This document shows, in pieces, positions 1 through 13,225 of a DNA stretch of 29,227 nucleotides. Source of the stretch: a virus. How positions within the stretch are numbered: position 1 is the first letter of the stretch; each line of letters starts with the position of its first letter. A program made the position numbers and the translations under genes. The DNA lies in IMG/VR virus record IMGVR_UViG_3300030103_000274, positions 1 to 29,227 of that record. The stretch is one strand, 5' to 3'. Below the pieces are notes generated by a model, which was not told the DNA's origin, did no database searches, and saw only the letters and a program-made list of their open reading frames with translations.

Positions 1-1494
1 TCATCTAGAGAGATTTTATCAATCAGAAGGAATTACTACGAAGATGACACAAAGAAAAAAAAGAGACAGTACTTTGTCCACTACAGGTACCTCCCCGGGT
101 TGGGCTTTTACGGTACAGGACTTATACACCTCATCGGGGGACTTGCCAAAAGCGCAACCTCAATCCTCAGACAGCTTATCGATGCCGGTACGTTGTCGAA
201 TTTGCCTGCTGGTCTTAAAGCTAGGGGTCTTCGTATCAAAGGTGATGATTCGCCTCTCATGCCGGGTGAGTTCCGTGACGTTGATGTCCCGGGTGGTGCC
301 ATCCGTGATGCTATTACTTTCATTCCTTACAAAGAACCGTCATCGGTATTGTACCAATTACTCGGAAACATCGTTGACGAAGGAAGAAGAATAGGGTCGG
401 TAGCCGATATACAGGTTGGGGACATTAACGCCCAAGCACCCGTAGGAACAACACTTGCCTTAATGGAAAGATCTATGAAGGTCATGTCTGGTGTACAAGC
501 TAGACTGCATGCAGCATTAAAGAACGAGTTAAGGTTGCTTGCTGCAGTTATCAGAGATTACATGGATGATACATACGCATACGAAATGGAAGGTGATTTC
601 TCAAGAACAAAAGATTTTGATGATCGCATAGACGTAATACCAGTTTCTGATCCTAATGCAGCAACAATGTCACAAAGAGTCATGCAGTATCAAGCTGCTT
701 TACAATTAGCACAGCAAGCACCGCAACTTTATGACATGGGTAAGTTACATAGACAGATGCTTGAGGTTCTGGGTATACAAGACGCAAGCTCAATCATTAA
801 GTTACCAGAAGATATTAAGCCTGCAGATCCAGTTACAGAAAACATGGCTATACTTAAACAGGAGCCAGTAAAAGCGTTTAAGTATCAAGATCATGAAGCC
901 CATATTAGAGTTCATTTAGCAGCAGCCAATGACCCAAAGTTAAAAGAAATTGTTGGGCAGTCACCATTTGCAGGAGCAATACAGGCGGCTTTATCAGCAC
1001 ATATAACAGAACATGTCGCATTTCAATATAGAAAAGAGATAGAGAAAAATCTTGGTGTTGCTATGCCTAATGAAGAAAAGCCATTACCAGAAGATACAGA
1101 AGAGGAATTATCTAGAGTCACTGCAGAAGCAGCAGAGAAATTATTAAGGGCAAATAATGCTGAAGCACAACAACAAGAAGCACAAAGGCAGCAGCAAGAT
1201 CCACTAACTCAAATACAACAAAGAGAGTTAGCTATAAAAGAACAAGAGCTTATGCATAAGAAACAGATGGATATAGCTAAGTTGGAGCTTGAAGCCCAGA
1301 AAGCGATGATGAATGATAAAAATCAAACCGAAAGATTGGAGTCTGAAAACAAGAGAGAGGGTGCGAGACTTGGTGTTGCCCTTGCAAAAAATTCTTCAGA
1401 CGCTCAAATTCAATCTGAAAAGATTAAAAATGACTCTGTGGCAGAAGGCACCAAAATAGCTATAGACCTAGCAAAAGAATTATCAAATGAGTAG
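1..1494 (+). CDS. Portal protein (5' end outside window)
   Basis: The frame is open from the first base, so the N-terminal part is missing; the TTG at 100 is internal and is not a start. The visible 497 residues contain LGFYGTGLIHLIGGLAKSA, followed by a block on drug-like family signature residues 'GLRIKGDD', 'DVDVPGGAIRD' and 'QAPVGTTLALMERSMKVMS', which I recognise from marine phage portal proteins. The last ~130 residues are Gln/Lys/Glu-rich and strongly helical, resembling the long C-terminal helical barrel of P22-type portals. The portal ring sits at one capsid vertex, admits DNA during packaging and carries the tail adaptors. It overlaps the next gene by ATGAGTAG. The first ~420 bases are richer in GC than the rest of the gene. 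Confidence 0.88.
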   Translation, partial: SSREILSIRRNYYEDDTKKKKRQYFVHYRYLPGLGFYGTGLIHLIGGLAKSATSILRQLIDAGTLSNLPAGLKARGLRIKGDDSPLMPGEFRDVDVPGGAIRDAITFIPYKEPSSVLYQLLGNIVDEGRRIGSVADIQVGDINAQAPVGTTLALMERSMKVMSGVQARLHAALKNELRLLAAVIRDYMDDTYAYEMEGDFSRTKDFDDRIDVIPVSDPNAATMSQRVMQYQAALQLAQQAPQLYDMGKLHRQMLEVLGIQDASSIIKLPEDIKPADPVTENMAILKQEPVKAFKYQDHEAHIRVHLAAANDPKLKEIVGQSPFAGAIQAALSAHITEHVAFQYRKEIEKNLGVAMPNEEKPLPEDTEEELSRVTAEAAEKLLRANNAEAQQQEAQRQQQDPLTQIQQRELAIKEQELMHKKQMDIAKLELEAQKAMMNDKNQTERLESENKREGARLGVALAKNSSDAQIQSEKIKNDSVAEGTKIAIDLAKELSNE

Positions 1495-1681
1495 AAATGA
1501 AACAATATACACATACATTATTAAAAAAGTGCAGGAAGAAATAGATGTTGTCTCTGACTATCTTTCATCCGGCAGACCTACTAATTTCGAGGAATATCAA
1601 AGACTTGTCGGAAAAATCGAAGGATTGTCCATCACCAGAGAACTGCTGCAGGAAGCTGAAAAAAGATTTATTGAAGATTAG
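1487..1681 (+). CDS. Small conserved phage protein next to portal
   Basis: A 64-residue, highly helical and charged protein whose ATG lies inside the portal stop region (8-base overlap), so translation is probably coupled. Residues around 'EEYQRLVGKIEGL' match a short family that commonly sits directly after the portal gene in podovirus-like marine phages; its role is unknown to me. There is no membrane segment or signal peptide. Its position suggests a head-assembly accessory role, but this rests on context only. Confidence 0.7.
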   Translation: MSRNETIYTYIIKKVQEEIDVVSDYLSSGRPTNFEEYQRLVGKIEGLSITRELLQEAEKRFIED

Positions 1682-1787: not shown

Positions 1788-2159
1788 ATGTACTCTGCAG
1801 AAAAAGTAGAACTAGACGAAGAAACTACTCGCAAACTACCTGAACCAAAAGGTTATAAATTATTAATAGCAATCCCAAAGCTAGAAGAAAAAACTGCAGG
1901 GGGTGTTATTATTCCAGATAAACTAAAAGGAATGGAACAAACCGCATCTATTATAGGATTGGTTATATCTGTAGGAAAAGCTGCATACAAAGATGCAGAC
2001 AAGTTTCCAGATGGACCTTACTGTAAAGAAGGTGATTTTGTTATATTCAGATCTTATTCTGGGACAAGATTTAAACTTAGAGGTGAAGAATTTAGATTAA
2101 TCAATGATGATACTGTAGAAGCAGTCGTTGATGATCCAAGAGAATATGCGAGGGCGTAA
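1788..2159 (+). CDS. groES: Phage GroES-like co-chaperonin (cpn10)
   Basis: The product caps a GroEL-type chaperonin ring and helps fold large phage proteins, as T4 gp31 does for its capsid protein. From the ATG at 1788 it is 123 residues. 'PKGYKLLIAIPKLEEKTAGG' followed by VIIP (residues ~20-43) matches the first beta strand and the mobile loop that binds GroEL; 'GDFVIFRSYSGTRFKLRGEE' matches the C-terminal beta barrel. I prefer 1788 because AAGGA lies 6 bases ahead; a TTG at 1737 would add 17 residues but has no clear ribosome-binding site. The stop overlaps the scaffold gene (TAATG). The position between portal and capsid genes supports a role in head protein folding. Confidence 0.88.
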   Translation: MYSAEKVELDEETTRKLPEPKGYKLLIAIPKLEEKTAGGVIIPDKLKGMEQTASIIGLVISVGKAAYKDADKFPDGPYCKEGDFVIFRSYSGTRFKLRGEEFRLINDDTVEAVVDDPREYARA

Positions 2160-3115
2160 TGGAAAATACAGCAGAAAAGATAGAGCAAGAAGTAAACTTA
2201 AATGTTAATGAAGATGTCGAGATAGAGGTTGTAGACGATACACCTGAACAAGACAGAAACAGACCTAAAAGGGCAGAAAACACAGAGCCTAATATACCTG
2301 ATGATGATGAAATAAATCATTACAAAGGTGATGTGCAAAAAAGAATTAAACAGCTCAAATATGAGTATCATGAAGAACGCAGACAAAAAGAAGAAGCAAA
2401 GCGTTTAAGTGACGAGGCGGTTACTGCCACACAAAGACTCATGGAAGAGAATAAAAAGTTAAGAAAAACCCTAGATGATGGTGAGGGTGTATTAGTTGAG
2501 CAAGCTAAAGGAAGAGTTGAGGCTCAATTAAATGAAGCAAAGAAAGAATACAAAGAGGCTTATGAAGCTGGAGATCCAGATAAGTTAATTGAAGCTCAAG
2601 AAAAATTAACCAGTATACAAAATGAAAAGTTTAGGGTTGAAAATTATAAACCCCCAGTAAGAGCAGAAGAGCCTGATGCGGCTCCTCCAACACAGGCTCC
2701 TGCTCAACCAAAGGTACAGGCGCCAACAGGCAAAGATAAAGAATGGCTTGAAGCTAATAATGATTGGTTTCAAAAAGAAGACCATGAAGATATGACAGGG
2801 TACGCAATGGGCGTACATCAAAAACTAGTAAAGGCAGGATTAAATCCAAAACTAGATACAGAAGAATATTATAAAAGAATTGACCAAGCTATGGAAAAAG
2901 CATTTCCAGAGCATTTCAATAAAGACAAGCAGACTGTTGAGACAGAAGAGGTAGAAGCACCTCAACGATCTGTTGGTTCCGTGGTTGCCCCGGTTAATCG
3001 AAGTGCAAAAAAGCCACGCAAAGTGCAGCTAACCTCCACCCAGATAGGACTCGCTAAACGTCTGGGAGTTACCCCTGAACAATATGCAGCGCAACTATTG
3101 AAGGAATCAATATAA
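2159..3115 (+). CDS. Putative capsid scaffolding protein
   Basis: A 318-residue, very acidic, low-hydrophobicity protein. The N-terminal ~50 residues are Glu/Asp-rich, residues ~60-160 are a predicted coiled coil rich in Lys/Glu/Gln, ~165-195 is a Pro/Ala/Gln linker, and the basic C-terminus contains 'LTSTQIGLAKRLGVTPEQYA', a helix-turn-helix-like end typical of scaffolds that bind coat protein. Charge, coiled coil, linker and position between portal and major capsid genes all fit an internal scaffold that is lost as the head matures. The start overlaps the co-chaperonin stop. No protease domain is visible. The function is inferred from composition and context. Confidence 0.72.
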   Translation: MENTAEKIEQEVNLNVNEDVEIEVVDDTPEQDRNRPKRAENTEPNIPDDDEINHYKGDVQKRIKQLKYEYHEERRQKEEAKRLSDEAVTATQRLMEENKKLRKTLDDGEGVLVEQAKGRVEAQLNEAKKEYKEAYEAGDPDKLIEAQEKLTSIQNEKFRVENYKPPVRAEEPDAAPPTQAPAQPKVQAPTGKDKEWLEANNDWFQKEDHEDMTGYAMGVHQKLVKAGLNPKLDTEEYYKRIDQAMEKAFPEHFNKDKQTVETEEVEAPQRSVGSVVAPVNRSAKKPRKVQLTSTQIGLAKRLGVTPEQYAAQLLKESI

Positions 3116-3546
3116 TGAACAGAGACTCACGCACAGAAAATACAAGAGAAAAGTCAGAACGTAAAGTTACATGGCAAAGGCCGTCAGCTTTACCTGATCC
3201 AAAGCCTCAAGATGGTGTAGAATTCAGATGGATTCGCACAGCATCTCTTGGACAGTCTGATATGACAAATGTGTCATCTAAATTTCGTGAAGGATGGGAA
3301 CCAGTAAAGTTAGAAGATCATCCTGAGTTGAAGATCATTTCTGACGTTGATTCTAAATTCAAAGGTAATGTAGAGGTTGGAGGATTGTTACTTTGCAAGA
3401 ACTCCACAGAAAACATGGAAGCCAGAAGAGACTATCAAAAAGAGCAGGCAAATTCACAAATGCAGGCTGTTGATAATAGTTTTATGAAGGAATCCGACCC
3501 CCGTATGCCAGTTCTCAGACCAGAGAAAAGCACACGCACTTCGTGA
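3115..3546 (+). CDS. Conserved head-region protein of unknown function
   Basis: A 143-residue hydrophilic protein starting in a TAATG overlap with the scaffold gene. The middle part, with 'FRWIRTASLGQSDMTNVSSK' and 'FREGWEPVKLEDHPE', is a pattern I associate with an uncharacterised family that precedes the capsid gene in marine phages; the C-terminal part is Gln/Met/Asp-rich with a basic end. There is no membrane segment. It may be a minor head protein or assembly factor, but nothing in the sequence names a biochemical role. Confidence 0.65.
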   Translation: MNRDSRTENTREKSERKVTWQRPSALPDPKPQDGVEFRWIRTASLGQSDMTNVSSKFREGWEPVKLEDHPELKIISDVDSKFKGNVEVGGLLLCKNSTENMEARRDYQKEQANSQMQAVDNSFMKESDPRMPVLRPEKSTRTS

Positions 3547-3576: not shown

Positions 3577-4179
3577 ATGTCAGCTACAGCAGCCCCTTTT
3601 GGATTAAGACCGGTAGGCAACTTAAGTGGAACTTATAATAACGGGTTTCGTCAGTATCCTATTTTGTCAACAGAATCCACAAGGATATGTTTCGGTGATG
3701 TTGTTAAGTTAACAGATGCCGGATCAACAACAACTATCCAAAAGGATACAGGAACAACTTCTGCTACTCCTATTGGAATATTCTTAGGGTGCAGATTTAT
3801 TGACGTCAGCACTAAACAATTAACTTTCAGTCAGCAGTGGTCTGGTGCAGCTCATACAGAAGGTATGGCATATGTAGCAGATGATCCAAATATTCTGTTT
3901 GAAATTCAAGCAGACGGATCTGTTAATGATGATGACATTGCAGCAAACTGTGCATTAGTACAAGGTACATCAAGTGCAGCTTTAGGTATTTCTAGAGTTT
4001 CATTAGATATCAGTACAGCAGCTAACACAGCAGCATTGCCAATTAGAATCGTAGATTTTAAAGGTGGCTTTGATGGTGATGAAAAAGGTACTTCATTTCC
4101 AATAATGCTTTGTAAGTTTAATACAGGTCATCAACTTGGTATCGGTGTCGTTTCTGGTAACGCACCATCAGCAGCTTAA
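3577..4179 (+). CDS. Putative head decoration/structural protein
   Basis: A 200-residue protein behind a good ribosome-binding site (AAGGGAGA). The start 'MSATAAPFGLRPVGNLSGTY' and the beta-rich, Gly/Thr/Ser-rich body resemble a family of small virion proteins found immediately before the major capsid gene in podovirus-like marine phages. It lacks a coiled coil, membrane segment or catalytic signature. Its small size and location between scaffold and capsid suggest a decoration or cement protein; this is inference. Confidence 0.6.
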   Translation: MSATAAPFGLRPVGNLSGTYNNGFRQYPILSTESTRICFGDVVKLTDAGSTTTIQKDTGTTSATPIGIFLGCRFIDVSTKQLTFSQQWSGAAHTEGMAYVADDPNILFEIQADGSVNDDDIAANCALVQGTSSAALGISRVSLDISTAANTAALPIRIVDFKGGFDGDEKGTSFPIMLCKFNTGHQLGIGVVSGNAPSAA

Positions 4180-4194
4180 TAGGGAGATTGAATT

Positions 4195-5031
4195 ATGGCT
4201 ATATCAAGAGCGCAACTCCTTAAAGAGTTGTTACCGGGTTTAAACGCATTGTTTGGCTTGGAATACGAAAAGTATGAAGATGAACATACTCAAATATATG
4301 AAGTAGAAAATTCAGAGCGTAGCTTTGAAGAAGAAGTGAAGTTGTCAGGTTTTGGTGCAGCTCCTGTTAAGCAGGAAGGTGCGTCAATATCATATGACAC
4401 AGCACAAGAGTCCTTTACTTCAAGGTATAACCACGAAACTGTGGCTATGGGCTTTTCAATAACAGAAGAGGCAATGGAAGATAATCTTTATGATTCATTA
4501 TTAAATAATGGCTTTGATACATTTCAAAGTGGCGATGGTGTAACATTGTTTAACACAGCTCACCCAACAGTGGCTGGTGGTAGCAATAAGAATAGACTTA
4601 CAACAAACGCTGATTTGAACGAAACATCTCTTGAACAGATGGTAATTGACATTGCAGCTTTCGTAGACGAAAGAGGTTTGTTAATTGCAGCAAGACCAAG
4701 AAAGTTAATCGTTCCACCAGCTTTAATGTTTGTAGCTACTAGAATATTGCAATCAGAGCTTAGAACTGGAACAGCTGACAATGACACAAATGCATTAAGA
4801 TCTAATGGGTCTATCCCAGAGGGTTATTCTGTTAACCACTATTTAACAGATACTGATGCATTTTTCTTAACAACTGACGTTCCTAACGGAATGAAAATGT
4901 TTGTAAGAACACCAATGTCAACATCAATGGATGGAGATTTCAACACAGGTAACGTAAGATACAAAGCCCGTGAGAGATATTCATTTGGTGTGTCAGATCC
5001 TCTCGGTATGTTTGGTTCACCGGGAGCCTAA
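4195..5031 (+). CDS. Major capsid protein (Mu gpT-like family)
   Basis: At 278 residues this should form the icosahedral shell. Recognisable blocks are 'LKELLPGLNALFGLEYEKY' near the N-terminus, 'GFSITEEAMEDNLYDSL' at ~85-102, 'VDERGLLIAARPRKLIVPP' at ~158-178, 'IPEGYSVNHYLTDTDAFFLT' and a C-terminal 'GNVRYKARERYSFGVSDPLG', all typical of the marine branch of gpT-like head proteins. As I remember the family, a helix of about 24 residues (with a pattern like RYTKALARSM) follows 'NLYDSL'; here 'NLYDSL' runs straight into LNNGFDTF, so an internal in-frame segment seems missing. The ribosome-binding site is GGGAGA; a terminator follows the stop. Confidence 0.88.
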   Translation: MAISRAQLLKELLPGLNALFGLEYEKYEDEHTQIYEVENSERSFEEEVKLSGFGAAPVKQEGASISYDTAQESFTSRYNHETVAMGFSITEEAMEDNLYDSLLNNGFDTFQSGDGVTLFNTAHPTVAGGSNKNRLTTNADLNETSLEQMVIDIAAFVDERGLLIAARPRKLIVPPALMFVATRILQSELRTGTADNDTNALRSNGSIPEGYSVNHYLTDTDAFFLTTDVPNGMKMFVRTPMSTSMDGDFNTGNVRYKARERYSFGVSDPLGMFGSPGA

Positions 5032-5766: not shown

Positions 5767-6051
5767 ATGGCAGGTCGATCAGACACAAAGTCATTTAACA
5801 TAGACCAAGGTGACAGTGCTGCTGTTCTAGGTCCAACAAGATCTAGAATAAGACAGGTTGTTATATTTGGTAACTCTGCTGGTGCATTTACAATTAAAGA
5901 TGGATCAGGTGGAGCAGATTTATTGGTTCAAAGTTTTCCTACAGGATTACATACATTGAACATACCAGATCAAGGTATACTAGCAGAGAACGGTGCTTTC
6001 GTTCATGCATTTACAGGTTCTGGCAATAAATTAACTGTGTTCTTGTCATAA
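5767..6051 (+). CDS. Small beta-rich structural-like protein
   Basis: A 94-residue protein with alternating hydrophobic/polar strands such as 'SRIRQVVIFGNSAGAFTIKD' and a Gly-rich C-terminal half. It has a strong ribosome-binding site (AGGAGG) 6 bases before ATG, suggesting high expression as for a virion component. The pattern recalls the small beta proteins at 15158 and 26311, though the match is at fold-pattern level only. No catalytic residues are recognisable. Confidence 0.55.
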   Translation: MAGRSDTKSFNIDQGDSAAVLGPTRSRIRQVVIFGNSAGAFTIKDGSGGADLLVQSFPTGLHTLNIPDQGILAENGAFVHAFTGSGNKLTVFLS

Positions 6052-6341
6052 TGGCTGCAAAAAAAGGGACCATGAAAGGTCACTCCATCGGAGGTGGGCA
6101 TAAACGGCCCACCAAATCTGGTGCTGGTATGACCAAAAAAGGTGTTGCAAAATACCGTAGAGATAATCCCGGATCTAAACTTAAAACAGCTGTAACAGGA
6201 AAAGTAAAACCCGGCAGTACTGCTGCAAAGAGGCGTAAGTCTTATTGTGCCAGATCTGCAGGTCAAATGAAAAAATTCCCTAAAGCAGCAAAAAATCCAA
6301 ATAGTCGTTTAAGACAAGCTAGAAGAAGGTGGAAATGTTAA
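6051..6341 (+). CDS. Basic conserved protein, RRKSYCARSAGQMKKFP motif
   Basis: A 96-residue, Lys/Arg-rich protein starting in a TAATG overlap. Residues 26-56 ('GMTKKGVAKYRRDNPGSKLK', then TAVTGKVKPGS) and 61-78 ('RRKSYCARSAGQMKKFPK') form a very conserved family that I know from cyanophages and other ocean viruses; the chain ends in RRRWKC. The two cysteines (C66, C96) are usual in the family. High positive charge suggests nucleic-acid contact, perhaps packaged with DNA, but the function is unknown. Confidence 0.72.
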   Translation: MAAKKGTMKGHSIGGGHKRPTKSGAGMTKKGVAKYRRDNPGSKLKTAVTGKVKPGSTAAKRRKSYCARSAGQMKKFPKAAKNPNSRLRQARRRWKC

Positions 6342-6553
6342 TGGAAAAAAATGTTCAGTCTTTGCAAATAGAATTTGCTGAATGGAAATCCAAACAAGAC
6401 TATCTTGTAAAGCATGTTGATGAATTAAGAGCAGACATGACAGATATTAAAAGGGCAGTCTTTCAAGCTAAATGGATGTTGATTGGTGCTTTAGCAGTAA
6501 TAGCCGTAACTAATACAGGGGCGGTAACAGAATTGTTAGCGTTACTTAAATAA
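6341..6553 (+). CDS. XhlA-like membrane protein (holin-associated)
   Basis: A 70-residue protein with an N-terminal amphipathic coiled coil (residues ~5-42) and one membrane segment near residues 45-59, the layout of XhlA-type haemolysin/holin accessory proteins. I start it at the ATG at 6341 (TAATG overlap with the upstream gene); a GTG at 6329 in the same frame would add four residues. XhlA-like proteins act with a holin and a lysozyme at the inner membrane; here the clear holin and lysozyme lie about 20 kb downstream, so another membrane role in the virion or during entry is possible. Confidence 0.5.
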   Translation: MEKNVQSLQIEFAEWKSKQDYLVKHVDELRADMTDIKRAVFQAKWMLIGALAVIAVTNTGAVTELLALLK

Positions 6554-6597
6554 TGATATCTAGAGCAACAATGAATAAACAACTGAAGGGGAATAAA

Positions 6598-7068
6598 ATG
6601 GCATTACCAAAACCAAGACCAAAAGCAAAGAAAAAGATAGGTGACGACTTAGTTTCTGGAATTAAAAGTTTCTTCACTGGTTCTAAGAAAAAAGTTCCTG
6701 ACAGTAAGAAAAGCCCTATTAGAAAACAAGCTGATGCCAAAAAAGCCAAAAAAGATAAATTAATTAAATCTCAAAAACAGTCTACAAAATTCATGGGTAA
6801 AAAAGCAGGTGCAACTGTTGATCCTAGAATTGTAAGAAAAGCCAAACCTAAAAAAGGCCCTGTAGTTACAAAAGAGCAGTTAAAAAAATCAGGATTGAGC
6901 CTTCGTGATTACATGAACTTTCAACAAGGTAAGACAAGAAAGAAAGGTCCTGTTGTTCCTAAAAGAGTTGCCCCATCAGCAGGTGCTGGTAATGTTAAAA
7001 CAGGTGACAAAAAAAGAAACGTAGCAGTTAAGAAAAGCTATGGTGGTTCTATGAAGAGGATGAAATAA
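6598..7068 (+). CDS. Lysine-rich basic protein (MALPKPRPK start)
   Basis: A 156-residue, extremely Lys-rich protein of low complexity. I choose the ATG at 6598 because AAGGGG stands 6-7 bases ahead; the ATG at 6553, in a TAATG overlap, would add 15 residues. The N-terminal 'MALPKPRPK' recurs as 'AMPKPRPK' inside the protein at 10591. It carries repeated 'KKGPVV' motifs and ends in 'YGGSMKRMK', a di-glycine/lysine motif shared with its neighbours. No fold is recognisable. It may bind DNA or be an internal virion protein; both are inference. Confidence 0.62.
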   Translation: MALPKPRPKAKKKIGDDLVSGIKSFFTGSKKKVPDSKKSPIRKQADAKKAKKDKLIKSQKQSTKFMGKKAGATVDPRIVRKAKPKKGPVVTKEQLKKSGLSLRDYMNFQQGKTRKKGPVVPKRVAPSAGAGNVKTGDKKRNVAVKKSYGGSMKRMK

Positions 7069-7069
7069 A

Positions 7070-7525
7070 ATGCCAATTAAAATTGTTGCTAAGAAAAATT
7101 CTAAAAAAGATCCGTTTAGAGCGGATAAAACTGAATCTTTAGATAAAGAATTTAGTAAAAGTGTTAGTAAAGCCAACAAAAAAGCTATGAAAAATGTAAA
7201 AAAGAAACCTGTAATAAAGAAAGGCATTGGCAAAATGCTAGAAACTATTTCTCCTGTTTATAGCATTATGAAGGGTAAAGGCCCCATATCTGAAATTGCT
7301 TCTTCTTTAGGCAGCAGTAGTCTTATTGGAAACTTTGCTCAGAGACAACAAGATAAAGCAAAAAAACGTAGAATGGCTATGGCTGGTGCTAATAAAATGG
7401 ATTCTTCAGCTGTTCCTCAAAGCAATAGAATGACACCTATGACACAGATGATGGCTGGAGGCCCAGTAAAAAGAAAAAGATCAATAGATGGATGTGCTAT
7501 GAGAGGCAAAACAAGAGCTGTATAA
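7070..7525 (+). CDS. Basic protein with KDPFRADKTESLDK block
   Basis: A 151-residue basic protein. Residues 13-46 form a block that recurs at 27 of 34 identical positions in the protein encoded at 10591, so the two share a module. Residues ~58-92 are less charged and could form one or two amphipathic helices. The C-terminus has MMAGGPVKRKRSIDG and then RGKT; the GGPV and SIDG..RGKT pieces are typical tails of marine phage proteins of unknown function. It starts one base after the upstream stop and ends in a TAATG overlap with the zinc-ribbon gene. Confidence 0.65.
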   Translation: MPIKIVAKKNSKKDPFRADKTESLDKEFSKSVSKANKKAMKNVKKKPVIKKGIGKMLETISPVYSIMKGKGPISEIASSLGSSSLIGNFAQRQQDKAKKRRMAMAGANKMDSSAVPQSNRMTPMTQMMAGGPVKRKRSIDGCAMRGKTRAV

Positions 7526-7680
7526 TGGTTGATAAAGCATGCCCTGTTTGCAAAACAGCAATAAAAGAGACAAAAGAAAAAACAGTTAAATGTATAACTT
7601 GTCAAGCTGTTATATCAGAAGATGTGCAGTGGCAAAGTAAATACGGTTATGAATGGGTAGAAGAAAATGCCAAGTCGTAA
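7525..7680 (+). CDS. Short zinc-ribbon protein
   Basis: A 51-residue protein from the ATG at 7525 (TAATG overlap). It has two Cys pairs, CPVC (C6, C9) and CITC (C23, C26), with a 13-residue spacing that fits a single zinc ribbon. An in-frame start further upstream is possible but would lie deep inside the previous gene. The aromatic C-terminal 'WQSKYGYEWVEE' is acidic, unlike the basic neighbours. It could mediate protein or nucleic-acid contacts; the target is unknown. Confidence 0.62.
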   Translation: MVDKACPVCKTAIKETKEKTVKCITCQAVISEDVQWQSKYGYEWVEENAKS

Positions 7681-7927
7681 TTATCGTGGTGAGTATGATA
7701 ACTACCACAAAAAACCTGACCAGAAGAAAAGAAGAGCTAGTAGGAACACAGCTAGGTCAACTATGAAAACTGCCGGTAAGGTTAAAAAGGGTGATGGTAA
7801 AGATGTTGCTCACAAGAATGGCAATCCTAAAGATAATAAAAGAAAAAATCTTACAGTAAAGCCTAAGTCAGTTAACAGATCTTTTGCCAGAACAAGTAAA
7901 GCAAAAAAAGTTAACAGGAGAGCTTAA
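7667..7927 (+). CDS. Basic HNH-like protein
   Basis: An 86-residue, Arg/Lys-rich protein overlapping the zinc-ribbon gene by 14 bases. Residues 41-64 ('KGDGKDVAHKNGNPKDNKRK', then NLTV) resemble the core of phage HNH nucleases, in which D-x-x-H-x-x-G-N is followed by N and NL; H49, N57 and N61 are kept. Family members I remember usually have VDH rather than VAH, so an acidic residue next to the histidine is absent and nuclease activity is doubtful. The N-terminal 'MPSRNYRGEYDNYHKKPDQK' is a typical start of this marine phage family. It may be a non-catalytic DNA-binding derivative. Confidence 0.6.
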   Translation: MPSRNYRGEYDNYHKKPDQKKRRASRNTARSTMKTAGKVKKGDGKDVAHKNGNPKDNKRKNLTVKPKSVNRSFARTSKAKKVNRRA

Positions 7928-8328
7928 TGAAAGTTACAAGACTAAAAAGTGGCGGTTTTCTGTCATCAGGTACTGATGCTGGTGATTTAAATATATTAAG
8001 AACTGCTAAAAATATAGATGATGGTTCGGGTATGAAAGCAGGTGGACCAGTAAAGGCCAAGCTAAAAAAAGTTATTACTGGTTTAAAAAAAGCATCTAAG
8101 TTACATGCAGGTCAGGCAAGGACATTAAGCACTATCAAGATGAAAGAGGGCGGAAAGACTAAAAGTAAAGTTAATGAAGCAGGTAACTATACAAAGCCCG
8201 GAATGAGAAAAAAAATATTTAACAGAATTAAGGCAGGCGGCAAGGGTGGTAGACCCGGTCAATGGTCTGCTCGTAAAGCGCAAATGATGGCTAAAGCCTA
8301 TAAGAAAGCAGGTGGCGGCTACAAATAA
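7927..8328 (+). CDS. Basic protein with NYTKPGMRK / GQWSARKAQ domain
   Basis: A 133-residue protein in a TAATG overlap with its upstream neighbour. The C-terminal half, with 'KSKVNEAGNYTKPGMRKKIF' and 'GGRPGQWSARKAQMMAKAYK', is a highly conserved basic domain found in many viruses of the ocean. The N-terminal half carries the di-glycine motifs SGGF, KAGGPVK and KEGGK, and the protein ends AGGGYK. High charge and no membrane segment suggest DNA or RNA contact in the particle or infected cell; the actual role is unknown. Confidence 0.7.
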   Translation: MKVTRLKSGGFLSSGTDAGDLNILRTAKNIDDGSGMKAGGPVKAKLKKVITGLKKASKLHAGQARTLSTIKMKEGGKTKSKVNEAGNYTKPGMRKKIFNRIKAGGKGGRPGQWSARKAQMMAKAYKKAGGGYK

Positions 8329-8341
8329 GGAATGATACATT

Positions 8342-8917
8342 ATGGACCCAGTTACTATATCTGTTGCAATGGGAGTTGCAAATAGCGCATTTAACGCTAT
8401 AAAATCCGGATTCGCAGCAGCAAGAGATATAGAGCAGATGAGTGGGGACATAGGTCGTTGGATGGGAGCTGTATCAGATATTGATAATGCAGAAAAACAA
8501 GCTAAAAATCCTCCCCTGTTTGGCAAATTGTTTAAAGCTGGGTCTATTGAAGAGGCAGCTCTCGCTGCTTATGCAGCCAAGAAGAAACTTGAGGAACAAA
8601 GGTACGAACTCAAGATGTTTTTGAATATGACTCATGGGCCACAGGCTTATGATGAATTGTTGCAGATGGAAGGGCAGATAAGAAAACAAAGACAACAAAC
8701 TATATACAAACAGCAACAAATGAGAAGGCAGATAGGTGAAGCTATTGTTTGGCTACTTGTTGCAGGTATAGTAGGTGGTTTTGCAATATTACTAGCATCC
8801 GTATGGACTAAAAGAGCAAAAGCAGATGGTTATATTTATAAGCCAAAGGAATACACAAAACAGCAAAAAGTATGGCAGGGTAAAACCAAAAAAAAAAATA
8901 TACAACTTGTAGATTAA
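8342..8917 (+). CDS. Helical membrane-anchored phage protein
   Basis: A 191-residue protein: helical Ala-rich N-terminus, a long Gln/Arg/Lys-rich coiled coil at ~75-130, one membrane segment at ~134-155 ('IVWLLVAGIVGGFAILLASV') and a basic tail. I recall related proteins in pelagic phages, always without a function. The layout would suit an internal virion protein that inserts in the host membrane during DNA entry or a cell-envelope protein; both are inference. It has a good distance (13 bases) from the preceding stop, with AAGGA as ribosome-binding site. Confidence 0.6.
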   Translation: MDPVTISVAMGVANSAFNAIKSGFAAARDIEQMSGDIGRWMGAVSDIDNAEKQAKNPPLFGKLFKAGSIEEAALAAYAAKKKLEEQRYELKMFLNMTHGPQAYDELLQMEGQIRKQRQQTIYKQQQMRRQIGEAIVWLLVAGIVGGFAILLASVWTKRAKADGYIYKPKEYTKQQKVWQGKTKKKNIQLVD

Positions 8918-8943
8918 AGAAAAGAATAAAATCTAGAACAGGT

Positions 8944-9102
8944 ATGATGGCTTGCATTTATATAGGTAATAATAAGACATATGAGCTAATGATTGAAAGT
9001 TGGTGTCCAAGACAGTATAAATGTGTTTACAACCCTTGGGGTAAAGAGCCTAATATAGATGATGTAATTAATTCTTTAAACAATGCGGTTAAAAACAAAT
9101 GA
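8944..9102 (+). CDS. Short Cys-containing protein
   Basis: A 52-residue reading frame begins with ATGATG at 8944 and ends in TGA at 9100-9102, sharing ATGA with the next gene. That overlap, repeated through this operon, and the fact that it fills an otherwise empty 180-base gap support translation. The product starts MMACIYIGNNKTYEL and contains WCPRQYKCVYNPWG; C4, C21 and C27 are too few for a clear zinc site. The ribosome-binding site is weak. The function is unknown. Confidence 0.6.
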   Translation: MMACIYIGNNKTYELMIESWCPRQYKCVYNPWGKEPNIDDVINSLNNAVKNK

Positions 9103-9308
9103 CAGATGATAAAAAAAAGATTGTTAATTTAGATATAGGTCAAAATAGTTTTGAGTTATCTTTAAGAATACTTGGTAATGAGTTTGTTGCTATAAAGATA
9201 GGCTCCACTAATTTTAGCGGTAAGTTAATAGCCGGTGGTATACTTTTACTCTTTTTTACGCTAGTATTGTTAGAAGGATTTGGCTTGAATGAGGTCTTAA
9301 AACAATGA
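9099..9308 (+). CDS. Small single-pass membrane protein
   Basis: A 69-residue protein with a hydrophilic N-terminal part and one membrane segment at ~44-61 ('AGGILLLFFTLVLLEGFG'). It shares ATGA overlaps with the genes on both sides, so it is translated with the EF-hand membrane protein that follows. A pair of small membrane proteins might act as holin/antiholin or as envelope modifiers, but nothing sequence-specific supports this. Confidence 0.6.
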   Translation: MTDDKKKIVNLDIGQNSFELSLRILGNEFVAIKIGSTNFSGKLIAGGILLLFFTLVLLEGFGLNEVLKQ

Positions 9309-9640
9309 CGCAAAAGAAGTTTGAAAAAGGTTCTAAGATTGCAGAGCAATTAGATATTGATAAGAATGGCACAATAACAGACGCAGAGTTCTTAATGAAA
9401 GAACGAATGATTTTGTTAGAGAATAGAGATAAGAAAGAAGACCAACAAAGATATATGGTTTGGTTTTCAGCATTGTCTGTTACTGTTTTTATAGTTGTTT
9501 TAATGTTTCCTATAATACCTCTTGATCGTGTAGATCATCTATCAAGTATTGCAAATACATGGGTATTAAGTAACATGGGCATAATCGGTAGCTTTATAGT
9601 TGGTAATCAACTAGCTAATAGAAAAACGGATGCCAAATAA
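9305..9640 (+). CDS. EF-hand membrane protein, holin-like
   Basis: A 111-residue protein with one complete EF-hand calcium loop at residues 17-28 (DIDKNGTITDAE): D17, D19, N21, T23, T25 and E28 occupy the six ligand positions. A charged helix follows and then two hydrophobic segments, ~51-72 and ~86-102. EF-hand proteins with two membrane segments are known in marine phages and have been suspected to be holins. Calcium binding would be on the side of the N-terminal domain. It overlaps the preceding gene by ATGA and ends directly at the next start. Confidence 0.65.
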   Translation: MTQKKFEKGSKIAEQLDIDKNGTITDAEFLMKERMILLENRDKKEDQQRYMVWFSALSVTVFIVVLMFPIIPLDRVDHLSSIANTWVLSNMGIIGSFIVGNQLANRKTDAK

Positions 9641-9904
9641 ATGGGTGGATTAAAAAAATCACAGAGGAGTTTGAAGGCTTGGGGTAAACAGAAATGGCGA
9701 ACTAAAAGTGGTAAACCTAGTACACAAGGGCCAAAGGCAACCGGTGAGCGTTACTTACCTGCGAAAGCAATTAAAGCTCTATCGCCCTCTGAATACGCCT
9801 CCTCTACGGCTGCTAAACGCAAAGCAACTAGAGCAGGTAAACAAGTGGCTAAACAACCCAAGAAGGTTGCAAGAAAGACGAGAGCTTATAGAAAGGTCAC
9901 ATAA
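9641..9904 (+). CDS. Basic conserved protein (KWRTKSGKPS family)
   Basis: An 87-residue Lys/Arg-rich protein whose ATG directly follows the upstream stop. The blocks 'LKAWGKQKWRTKSGKPSTQG' and 'GERYLPAKAIKALSPSEYAS' belong to a strongly conserved family that I know from many ocean viruses; the C-terminus is a basic tail with Lys-Lys/Arg pairs. GC is a little higher than in the surrounding genes, as is common for this conserved family. Nucleic-acid binding is probable from the charge; its role is unknown. Confidence 0.7.
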   Translation: MGGLKKSQRSLKAWGKQKWRTKSGKPSTQGPKATGERYLPAKAIKALSPSEYASSTAAKRKATRAGKQVAKQPKKVARKTRAYRKVT

Positions 9905-10588
9905 ATGGCAGTAGTAGTCCCAGATATACCAGATTTGTTTGAAGAGGCTTATCAAAGAGCAGGATTAGAACTTAGGACTGGTAATGATCTAAGAAACGCA
10001 AGACGTAGTTTTAACTTACTAACTATGGAATGGCAGAACAGAGGTTTAAATCTTTGGACTATAGAGGCTGGTACACAAGCCCTTACATCCGGCACAGCAA
10101 CGTATACGCTGCCAACAGACACGGTAGATCTAGTTGAGCATCAAATTAGAACTGGCACTGGCACAAGTCAAACAGACACAAACTTAACAAGAGTTAGTGT
10201 TTCAACATATGCACAGCAATCAGCAAAAAACTCTACTGGCAAACCCACACAAATCTTTATACAAAGACTAGCTGGTTCAACAACAGTTACATTATGGCCT
10301 GTGCCTGACAGTGCAGATACATATACATTGTCTTATTTTAGAATTGCAGGAATAGATGGGATATCATCTGGTATAGATGGTACAACTACATCATTTGTTC
10401 CACCAAGATTTGTTCCTTGCCTTGTTTCTGGATTAGCTTATTACATAGCTATGAAAAGACCAGAAGTTGCAAACAGAGTTGTTCCCCTCAAACAGGAATA
10501 TGAATTTCAGTTTGAACTAGCAGCAGGGGAAGACACAGAGAGTGCGTCTGCTAGATTTGTACCTTATGACACATTTTACGGAGCGTAA
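9905..10588 (+). CDS. Head-tail adaptor-like protein
   Basis: A 227-residue protein. The helical N-terminus with 'FEEAYQRAGLELRTGNDLRN' and 'ARRSFNLLTMEWQNRGLNLW' resembles the helical body of short-tail connector proteins (P22 gp4 / T7 gp11 type), followed by a beta domain ('GTATYTLPTDTVDLVEHQIR') and a C-terminal helix 'PEVANRVVPLKQEYEFQFEL'. Such proteins form a ring below the portal on which the tail is built. It directly follows the basic peptide gene. A second adaptor-like protein lies at 12578, so which one contacts the portal is open. Confidence 0.7.
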   Translation: MAVVVPDIPDLFEEAYQRAGLELRTGNDLRNARRSFNLLTMEWQNRGLNLWTIEAGTQALTSGTATYTLPTDTVDLVEHQIRTGTGTSQTDTNLTRVSVSTYAQQSAKNSTGKPTQIFIQRLAGSTTVTLWPVPDSADTYTLSYFRIAGIDGISSGIDGTTTSFVPPRFVPCLVSGLAYYIAMKRPEVANRVVPLKQEYEFQFELAAGEDTESASARFVPYDTFYGA

Positions 10589-10590
10589 TT

Positions 10591-11034
10591 ATGCCAATAG
10601 TTATTCAAGAAAAATTTAAAAATACAAATAAAAAAAAGCAGTCTAAAGGTGGTGGTGGAATGGACATAGGCTCTCCTAAAAAAACTACTACAAAAAAATT
10701 GGGAGGCAGTATGTATGTAAGAAAAACAAAACCTGCTGTAAAAGGTTATAAAAATGGTGGTAAGGTTGCAATGCCTAAACCAAGACCAAAGAAAGATCCA
10801 TTTAGAGCAGATAAAACAGAGTCATTAGATAAAAAATTTAGCGCAGGTGTGTCAGCAACTAATAGAAAAAATATGAAAAATGTTAAGAAAAAAGCTGGTG
10901 GCGGTAAATTAAAATCAGTTCCAGAAGGTAATAAAGGTTTAGGAAAATTACCCACACCTGTTAGAAATAAGATGGGTTACATGAAAAAAGGTGGAAAAGT
11001 TACAAAAAAAACCATTAAAAAAGGTGGTAAATAA
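10591..11034 (+). CDS. Basic protein with repeated GG motifs and KDPFRADK block
   Basis: A 147-residue Lys-rich protein. Residues 68-101 repeat, at 27 of 34 positions, the block at residues 13-46 of the protein at 7070, and both chains start MPI[KV]I. It carries at least six Lys-GG motifs (KGGGGMDI, KKLGGSMY, YKNGGKVAMPKPRPK, KKAGGGK, MKKGGKV, KKGGK). No globular domain is recognisable. It sits between adaptor and tail genes, suggesting an internal virion or assembly role; this is context only. It ends in TAATG with the next gene. Confidence 0.65.
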   Translation: MPIVIQEKFKNTNKKKQSKGGGGMDIGSPKKTTTKKLGGSMYVRKTKPAVKGYKNGGKVAMPKPRPKKDPFRADKTESLDKKFSAGVSATNRKNMKNVKKKAGGGKLKSVPEGNKGLGKLPTPVRNKMGYMKKGGKVTKKTIKKGGK

Positions 11035-11408
11035 TGGCTGATTATGAAAAAGAAAAAGCTAAAATAAAAAAGAAAAATAAACCTATGGATTTGTTAGGAG
11101 CGGGTCCAAGTCCGCTAAGAATACTAGCTAGACATATGGGGAATAAAGATAGAAAAAAAAAGATGAAGAAAGAACTTGATGCATTACCAATGAAAGTTGA
11201 TGATTTTCAAGAAAATCACGAAAGAAATAAAATAAAAAGTGATACTGAAGAGTTTGCAAAAAAAGTTAGAAAAAAAGTTGGGATCAAGGAACCAAAAACA
11301 AAAGGCATGAAATTTGAGACAGTCAAGCAAAAAGCTGTTGGTGGAGTTGTTAAGATGCGTGGTGGTGGAGCGGCCACTAGAGGAATTAACTTTAATAGAG
11401 GTTACTAA
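11034..11408 (+). CDS. Basic protein ending in GGGAATRG motif
   Basis: A 124-residue Lys-rich, helix-prone protein in a TAATG overlap with the previous gene. Residues ~20-45 contain 'GAGPSPLRILARHMGNKDRK'; the C-terminus VVKMRGGGAATRGINFNRGY is an end motif (GGGAA-K/T-R/G-G) that I know from several unrelated marine phage proteins. It belongs with the other di-glycine/lysine proteins of this region. The function is unknown; a small packaged or tail-assembly protein is possible. Confidence 0.6.
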   Translation: MADYEKEKAKIKKKNKPMDLLGAGPSPLRILARHMGNKDRKKKMKKELDALPMKVDDFQENHERNKIKSDTEEFAKKVRKKVGIKEPKTKGMKFETVKQKAVGGVVKMRGGGAATRGINFNRGY

Positions 11409-12577: not shown

Positions 12578-13225
12578 ATGAGCTTTACATTAGCGCAATT
12601 AAAAACTGCAATACAGGATTACACAGATAATTCAGAAACGTCTTTTGTGAGTCATTTACCTGATTTTATAAAAGCAGCAGAAGAAAGAATATTTAAGAAT
12701 GTAGATTTAGAAATATTTAGAAAAAATGTAACCACAGCTCTTACAACAAGCGATAAATTTCTAACTATACCATCAGATTATTTAGCATCATTTTCATTAC
12801 AAATAACAACATCTGGTAGTGAGGCATTTCTTTTACAAAAAGATGTCAACTTTTTACAAGAAGCCTATGATGCATCCTCATCCACAGCAACACCCAGATT
12901 CTATGCACAGTTTGATGCAAATAACTTTATTATTGCCCCTACCCCAAACTCTAATTATGCAATAGAATTACATTACTATTATAGACCAACTAGCTTAACA
13001 GCTGGTGCTGATAGTGCCACAACATGGTTAAGTACCAATGCACCATTTGCATTATTGTTTGGATCATTGGTAGATGCTTATATTTTTATGAAGGGTGAGG
13101 CTGATTTGATACAACAATATGAGAAAAGATTTATGGATCAATTAACAAGACTTAAAGATTACGGAGAGGCAAGAGAGAATACTGACGCTTACTCTGAGGG
13201 TCTACCAAGAGCGAAGAGAACATAG
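12578..13225 (+). CDS. SU10/T7 gp11-like tail adaptor protein
   Basis: A 215-residue protein with a helical N-terminus ('DFIKAAEERIFKNVDLEIFR'), a central beta part ('SDKFLTIPSDYLASFSLQIT') and C-terminal helices with 'LLFGSLVDAYIFMKGEADLI' and 'YEKRFMDQLTRLKDYGEARE'. This order is that of the adaptor proteins of short-tailed phages (SU10 adaptor, T7 gp11 relatives), which sit under the portal and bind the tail. It directly follows the preceding stop. Together with the protein at 9905 it suggests two adaptor rings, as in some podoviruses. Confidence 0.75.
   Translation: MSFTLAQLKTAIQDYTDNSETSFVSHLPDFIKAAEERIFKNVDLEIFRKNVTTALTTSDKFLTIPSDYLASFSLQITTSGSEAFLLQKDVNFLQEAYDASSSTATPRFYAQFDANNFIIAPTPNSNYAIELHYYYRPTSLTAGADSATTWLSTNAPFALLFGSLVDAYIFMKGEADLIQQYEKRFMDQLTRLKDYGEARENTDAYSEGLPRAKRT

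Follow-up and report, generated by a model that had tools for sequence, protein, structure and literature searches.

In phage T4, folding of the capsid protein gp23 requires gp31 (PMC3012670; PMC6318259), a phage-encoded lid with the GroES fold, as is CocO of phage RB49. Gp31 is without roof loops, and its slightly larger chamber is thought to suit the 56-kDa client (PMC6318259); according to a review of the T4 head, specificity may also depend on less obvious properties of the cage (PMC3012670). In the HTVC023P-type phages, GroES belongs to a core set of 13 genes, and its presence in this phage type is already known in the main (PMC9599517). HTVC023P, HTVC027P and CRP-901/902 carry a gene annotated as co-chaperone or co-chaperonin GroES in the same order, GroES to gpT-like capsid, as the locus described below. 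In Pseudoalteromonas phage B8b, too, a GroES is annotated, in front of the tape-measure gene; its authors suggested a connection with greater complexity of capsid or tail (PMC4294664), and GroES is listed among the genes of marine viral genomic islands (PMC6487183).

Here we analyzed a GroES-like gene in a 29,227-nt stretch of viral DNA, positions 1 to 29,227 of IMG/VR record IMGVR_UViG_3300030103_000274, referred to as the window. The window opens inside a portal gene, followed by a 64-aa ORF, GroES, a scaffold-like gene, genes for proteins of 143 and 200 aa, and a gpT-like capsid gene (Table 1). From GroES onward, this is the HTVC023P-type head cassette (GroES, scaffold-like, about 150 aa, about 200 aa, gpT-like capsid), and near relatives among those listed keep the same GroES-to-capsid order; many of the relatives listed also match the 64-aa ORF. 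An earlier note on this DNA had placed the GroES-like gene between portal and scaffold genes and overlapping the start of the latter. Both statements hold, with the 64-aa ORF standing after the portal and with an overlap of a single nucleotide between the GroES stop codon (2157–2159) and the scaffold-like ATG at 2159. The label "scaffold-like" refers to position and composition. The capsid product exceeds the PF10124 (Mu-like gpT) cut-off (36.7 bits vs 20.1). Window GroES is 42% identical to that of HTVC027P and 38% to that of HTVC023P, and the capsid proteins are 58–61% identical. The neighbors of gp31 are not head genes, unlike those of window GroES; B8b GroES also lies among structural genes, but ahead of the tape-measure gene rather than the capsid gene (PMC4294664). 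No GroEL match was found in the window record (29 kb, perhaps incomplete) or in any of 18 related records scanned, five of which are viral contigs and perhaps incomplete.

Table 1. Features of the head-gene region, in window positions.
Feature	Position	Strand	Evidence
Portal protein, C-terminal part (window starts inside gene)	1..1494	+	phrog_1216, E 7.7e-24, profile 333-616 of 714
64-aa ORF in the portal-GroES interval	1487..1681	+	no PHROG match; Pfam match sub-threshold only
GroES/Cpn10 co-chaperonin, 123 aa	1788-2159	+	PF00166, phrog_3188, AlphaFold2 model, GroES structure matches
Mobile loop core TAGGVIIP, residues 36-43	1893..1916	+	sequence; model confidence 62-63 over residues 31-50, consistent with a flexible loop
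Roof segment, residues 64-81, 18 aa, ends YCKE before GD	1977..2030	+	alignment of phage and bacterial GroES
Scaffold-like protein, 318 aa	2159..3115	+	phrog_28737 (unknown function), E 1.9e-25
143-aa cassette protein	3115..3546	+	phrog_36003, E 2.4e-29
200-aa protein immediately 5' of the capsid gene, decoration/head candidate	3577..4179	+	phrog_37556 (unknown function), E 2.2e-14
Major capsid protein, Mu gpT-like, 278 aa, internal deletion	4195..5031	+	PF10124, E 3.8e-9; phrog_371, E 3.4e-17
Point of 69-nt in-frame deletion, 23 aa of predicted spine helix	4493..4504	+	comparison with L022

Further along the window, eight small, strongly basic ORFs (24–34% K+R) lie among structural genes at 6051–11408, and the ORFs at 7070 and 10591 have a common repeated segment (KKDPFRADKTESLDK...). 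Two separate SU10-type adaptor proteins (PF24175) are encoded at 9905–10588 and 12578–13225 (E 2e-13 and 1.7e-26), and a likely lysis pair consists of a three-TM GTA-type holin (PF11351; 26888–27283) and a phage lysozyme (PF00959; 27927–28373).

By family and fold, window GroES is a true GroES-type co-chaperonin gene. The product matches Pfam Cpn10 (PF00166, E 2.5e-13, 50.3 bits vs a cut-off of 21.1), a family that also finds T4 gp31 (29.9 bits), and its PHROG match is co-chaperonin GroES; it falls below the NCBIfam GroES cut-offs (best 50 vs 136). An AlphaFold2 model built with 87 input sequences reached a pLDDT of 83.5, with the mobile loop stretch (residues 31–50) and the N-terminal ten residues being the least sure. 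Structure comparison of this model returned the GroES beta-barrel, with a Z of 9.5 to 8wuc (92 aligned residues, rmsd 2.9); the top rows among 989 aligned chains were Cpn10s, gp31 entries scored Z 7.9 and 7.1, and the first other proteins scored Z 6.4. Window GroES shares the Cpn10 domain, the barrel, a KTAGG-x-IIP loop and a similar roof length with bacterial GroES (SAR11, other Pseudomonadota, cyanobacteria), and differs in being extended at the N-terminus by some 15 residues (residues 1–3 of bacterial GroES align with model residue 17). A TTG start at 1737 is less likely, since AAGGA precedes the ATG at 1788 and the matches of the nearest relatives start at this methionine. The ORF is intact and under purifying selection: dN/dS was 0.060–0.074 in five of six comparisons and 0.21 against the sixth relative.

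The mobile loop of window GroES had been described in the earlier note as departing from a GGIVL form of bacterial GroES, as in other phage versions. Alignment with 67 bacterial GroES (9 loci and two batches of 29 new sequences, mostly Pseudomonadota and cyanobacteria) speaks against such a departure as a phage trait of this protein. The tripeptide after GG was III in 31 of the 67, IFI in 10, ILL in 9, and IVI, IVL and LYL in 4 each, among others; the two batches were best-scoring matches (at most 30 loci each), and the sample thus leans to canonical GroES. GroES of three SAR11 (Pelagibacteraceae) host genomes has KTAGGIIIP, sharing 10 of the 11 residues of EKTAGG-x-IIPD with window GroES. The exact VII form of the window occurred in none of the 67 bacterial sequences and in 19 of 290 phage sequences, which are more varied (IIK 31, VFM 25, ILK 24, VYM 19). 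These counts were taken from the alignment (67 + 290 rows), as a regular expression for the loop missed one of eight hosts and 91 of the 290 phage rows. The departure would fit some phage relatives better than the window phage. Window GroES itself has a GroEL-binding loop sequence, the absence of which would have counted against the earlier note, with the GG and hydrophobic tripeptide in place (TAGGVII). Many relatives have tripeptides uncommon in the bacterial sample (IIK, ILK), and binding to host GroEL may therefore not extend across the whole phage family.

Between two barrel strands lies the roof segment, with a length of 18 aa in most phage GroES (252 of 290), 17 aa in nearly all bacterial GroES (66 of 67) and 10 aa in gp31. 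Window GroES keeps all 18 residues, so the roof loop absence of the gp31 type does not occur here. The capsid protein of the intact relative L022 has a mass of 33.0 kDa and that of the window 30.6 kDa, as compared to 56 kDa for the gp31 client. With the full roof segment in place and a probable client of only about 33 kDa, enlargement of the cage by window GroES is unlikely; a larger cage seems to be neither made by roof loss nor needed here. At the roof edge, the motif [FYW]CxxGD is present in 234 of the 290 phage sequences and in none of the 67 bacterial ones, a difference that would suit a tuned lid lining. T4 gp31 contains FCxxGD, but none of seven other gp31 homologs does, and we regard the motif as a signature shared with gp31 as probably due to chance.

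The linkage between GroES and the capsid gene was assessed over loci seeded from either gene. Capsid seeds gave three sets, of 80, 61 and 79 loci (the last being 80 minus one repeated contig), with testable loci defined as having at least 3.5 kb upstream; 37, 14 and 38 loci were too short. GroES lay upstream of the capsid gene in 43/43 testable loci of the first set (best 80 of at least 600 candidates), 45/47 in bacterial and archaeal genome assemblies (all 61 confirmed) and 41/41 of the third set (again the best 80 of at least 600), at a median distance of 2.0–2.1 kb. In the opposite direction, two GroES-seeded sets, each the best 80 of at least 600 candidates, had the capsid gene downstream in 43/43 and 41/41 loci with at least 3.5 kb of downstream sequence (37 and 39 were too short). 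The best-80 sets lean towards close relatives, and the seed sets have contigs in common, so that the counts are not to be summed. The two genome contigs without GroES were set aside as losses, as they look like chimeric or cut contigs starting mid-cassette: one (L199) has a run of N and unrelated genes before a scaffold fragment, and the other (L190) has unrelated long ORFs before a shortened homolog of the 200-aa protein.

A search of 50,697 phage records (tblastn, E 1e-5, four capsid seeds) recovered 22 with this gpT-like capsid, 21 of which contain Cpn10. A whole-record Pfam scan found it in 13/13 records and in MW202604, and tblastn in seven more; MT836833, a 10.8-kb fragment with a capsid match of E 8e-8, had no Cpn10 match and is too short to count. 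Some of the 22 are almost duplicates of one another (three cyanophage records of 65,014 bp, four Caulobacter phages and two Manatee Spring records of 46,293 bp), and the set therefore represents fewer independent lineages. Cpn10 also matches at E 0.1 in each of 16 IMG/VR records, in 15 of them over the cut-off, but these had been pre-chosen for this head module and carry no weight as evidence. No Cpn10 match was obtained in four controls lacking this capsid (Mu, SU10, HTVC010P and HTVC019P). The window capsid matches the Mu-like gpT family, but the gpT capsid of Mu lies outside the family studied here and the Mu genome has no Cpn10 match; GroES is therefore not a trait of gpT capsids at large. 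The comparison of related phages with and without GroES suggested in the earlier note could thus be made only in part: all intact-looking carriers of this capsid have Cpn10, leaving no group without it inside the family, and the outside controls have no match.

In a sample of 90 of the 204 loci, the distances of GroES and capsid proteins correlate (r 0.855, as compared to a maximum of 0.222 under permutation). GroES diverges faster (mean distance 0.555 vs 0.328). GroES is part of an old head cassette with this capsid family. In CRP-902, GroES (gp61) stays near the capsid gene (gp57), with the portal away at gp78. Two phages have Cpn10 outside the cassette: the methanogen virus vir526 (L392:2827-3183), beside terminase and portal and about 6.5 kb from the capsid gene, and the spring-water phage MW202601 (L393:4700-5164), near an SSB gene. 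The vir526 Cpn10 groups with hosts (support 64), and a clade of hosts and MW202601 is not rejected (p 0.774); both have very long branches, and separate acquisitions are possible. The patterns in CRP-902, vir526 and MW202601 favor need over mere neighborhood, although not decisively, because these phages share the head module by descent.

We propose that window GroES caps host GroEL and is kept chiefly for folding the gpT-like, HK97-fold capsid protein of its lineage, a reading to which we assign a probability of roughly 0.57. Modeled here as a single chain, the protein would form a heptamer and bind GroEL of the host, no GroEL having been found in the phage record, and the capsid protein would be its main client. 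The cage is probably not enlarged, unlike that of gp31; a tuned cavity lining, or simply more lid, would be likelier. Consistent with this proposal are the Cpn10 family and fold, the host-like loop sequence, purifying selection, near-invariant co-occurrence with the capsid and mostly fixed placement. The earlier note had read dedicated folding of the capsid protein from gene position. A role of GroES in head assembly is supported by sequence comparison, because GroES and this capsid family co-occur almost without exception, and that part of the claim stands; the capsid protein as client is a likely candidate. Several observations weigh against the proposal. Co-occurrence in one lineage can reflect common descent of the head module, with which other head genes travel too, and in vir526 and MW202601 Cpn10 is located at a distance from the capsid gene. 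Phage GroES is also not confined to this capsid, as seen in Acinetobacter phage MD-2021a, in Listeria phage fragments and perhaps in B8b: window GroES matches 17 phage records, 15 with this capsid and two short (3–4 kb) Listeria phage fragments without it, and CRP-902 GroES matches 18, 16 with the capsid and two Acinetobacter phage MD-2021a records without. Finally, the window's own capsid is without most of the predicted spine helix.

GroES might instead serve another head protein (the scaffold-like protein or the portal, for example) or the late proteins collectively. Its one-nucleotide overlap with the scaffold-like start, the order conserved among the near relatives listed and the position of the vir526 Cpn10 beside terminase and portal would agree with this, but the portal of CRP-902 is far from GroES. 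Scaffold proteins are usually helical and need little folding help. The T4 precedent, for its part, points to the capsid protein (PMC3012670), and overall we consider a different head client unlikely.

A broader role is also conceivable, in which GroES acts as an auxiliary gene: more GroES would be on hand during infection for host and phage proteins alike, with no special client. The window loop is nearly that of SAR11 hosts, gp31 can replace GroES for all E. coli clients (PMC6318259), and GroES occurs in marine viral genomic islands as well (PMC6487183). Auxiliary genes of this kind tend to come and go, however, whereas GroES is mostly fixed in position and absent from no intact-looking carrier, and the pelagiphages HTVC010P and HTVC019P have no Cpn10 match. 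This makes a purely auxiliary function rather improbable.

The earlier note had further remarked that the capsid appears shortened and may depend on GroES. The shortening is real: the window capsid has 278 aa, as compared to 300–324 aa in 263 relatives kept as full length. L022 residues 101–123 (placements at 100–102 being equivalent) have no counterpart in the window, and this 23-aa deletion also sets the window capsid apart from those of the HTVC023P-type phages. A long helix spans residues 99–128 in the L022 capsid model, the best structure matches of which are mostly HK97-fold phage capsids and encapsulins (TM 0.44–0.60); the deletion would thus take away 23 of the roughly 30 residues that make up the predicted spine helix. 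When the PDB was searched by sequence with the capsid profile, three partial matches came back, each either of gpT type or named major capsid protein. Relatives sharing the deletion might have been lost through the full-length filter, and we therefore also examined, unfiltered, 308 related loci spanning the site (some from the same contig), none of which shares it; three with other length oddities, read individually, keep the helix. Three capsid contigs of one SAR86 MAG (LUQU01; L209, L216 and L217) have odd capsid gene lengths and are possibly assembly chimeras. A 7-nt direct repeat lies at the two deletion edges in L022, and two pattern scans of viral_contigs, from which the window's own record may be absent, found no deletion junction. 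Dependence of the shortened capsid on GroES was not borne out, because full-length relatives carry the same GroES and the deletion is private to the window. The reading frame is kept across the deletion, and elsewhere the gene is 80–100% identical to L022 (60-nt blocks), as expected if the short capsid were a working variant that depends on window GroES, but the loss of most of the predicted helix, the empty scans and the intact-capsid relatives with the same GroES make this very improbable; the shortening is probably a defective variant or an assembly fault.

A recent capture of a host GroES gene, the alternative that the earlier note had set against its own reading, is barely credible. Window GroES is 31–39% identical to GroES of eight hosts; identity rises to 48–50% with MinM2 and reaches 97% among viral contigs (best 80 of at least 600 candidates). 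In a 52-row tree, the eight hosts were separated from the 44 phage rows with an SH-aLRT of 96, and the window joined its nearest relative, L002 (SH-aLRT 99); the host–phage split persisted in a 58-row tree with longer branches, where its support was 14. The roof-edge motif, frequent in phage and absent from the bacterial sequences, likewise argues against capture. On the other side stand the SAR11-like loop and a forced clade of hosts and window, which cost 13.9 log units and is not rejected at 0.05 (AU p 0.082).

For the capsid-folding role proposed above, the present comparison adds a near-strict tie of GroES to one capsid family across distant hosts, together with a retained roof. We found no statement of a capsid–GroES linkage across this family in the literature searched, which left out most subscription papers and is not proof that the linkage is unpublished. 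In the records analyzed here, this capsid family can serve as a simple marker for the presence of a Cpn10 gene. A stronger and more doubtful version, which we put forward tentatively, is that the whole capsid family cannot fold without a virus-supplied co-chaperonin, despite a capsid protein small enough for an ordinary cage, and that the cases without GroES in the cassette (vir526 and MW202601) re-acquired Cpn10 from another source. If true, this would apply to a family spanning phages of SAR11, roseobacters, Caulobacter, Alcaligenes and cyanobacteria and a methanogen virus, and client specificity would lie in the lid lining rather than in cage size. T4 gp31 is explained partly by a larger cage for a 56-kDa client, and the marine phage lineage of the window provides the contrast case: a dedicated lid with a roof of normal length and a 33-kDa client would allow cage size and client tuning to be told apart as grounds on which a phage keeps a GroES gene.
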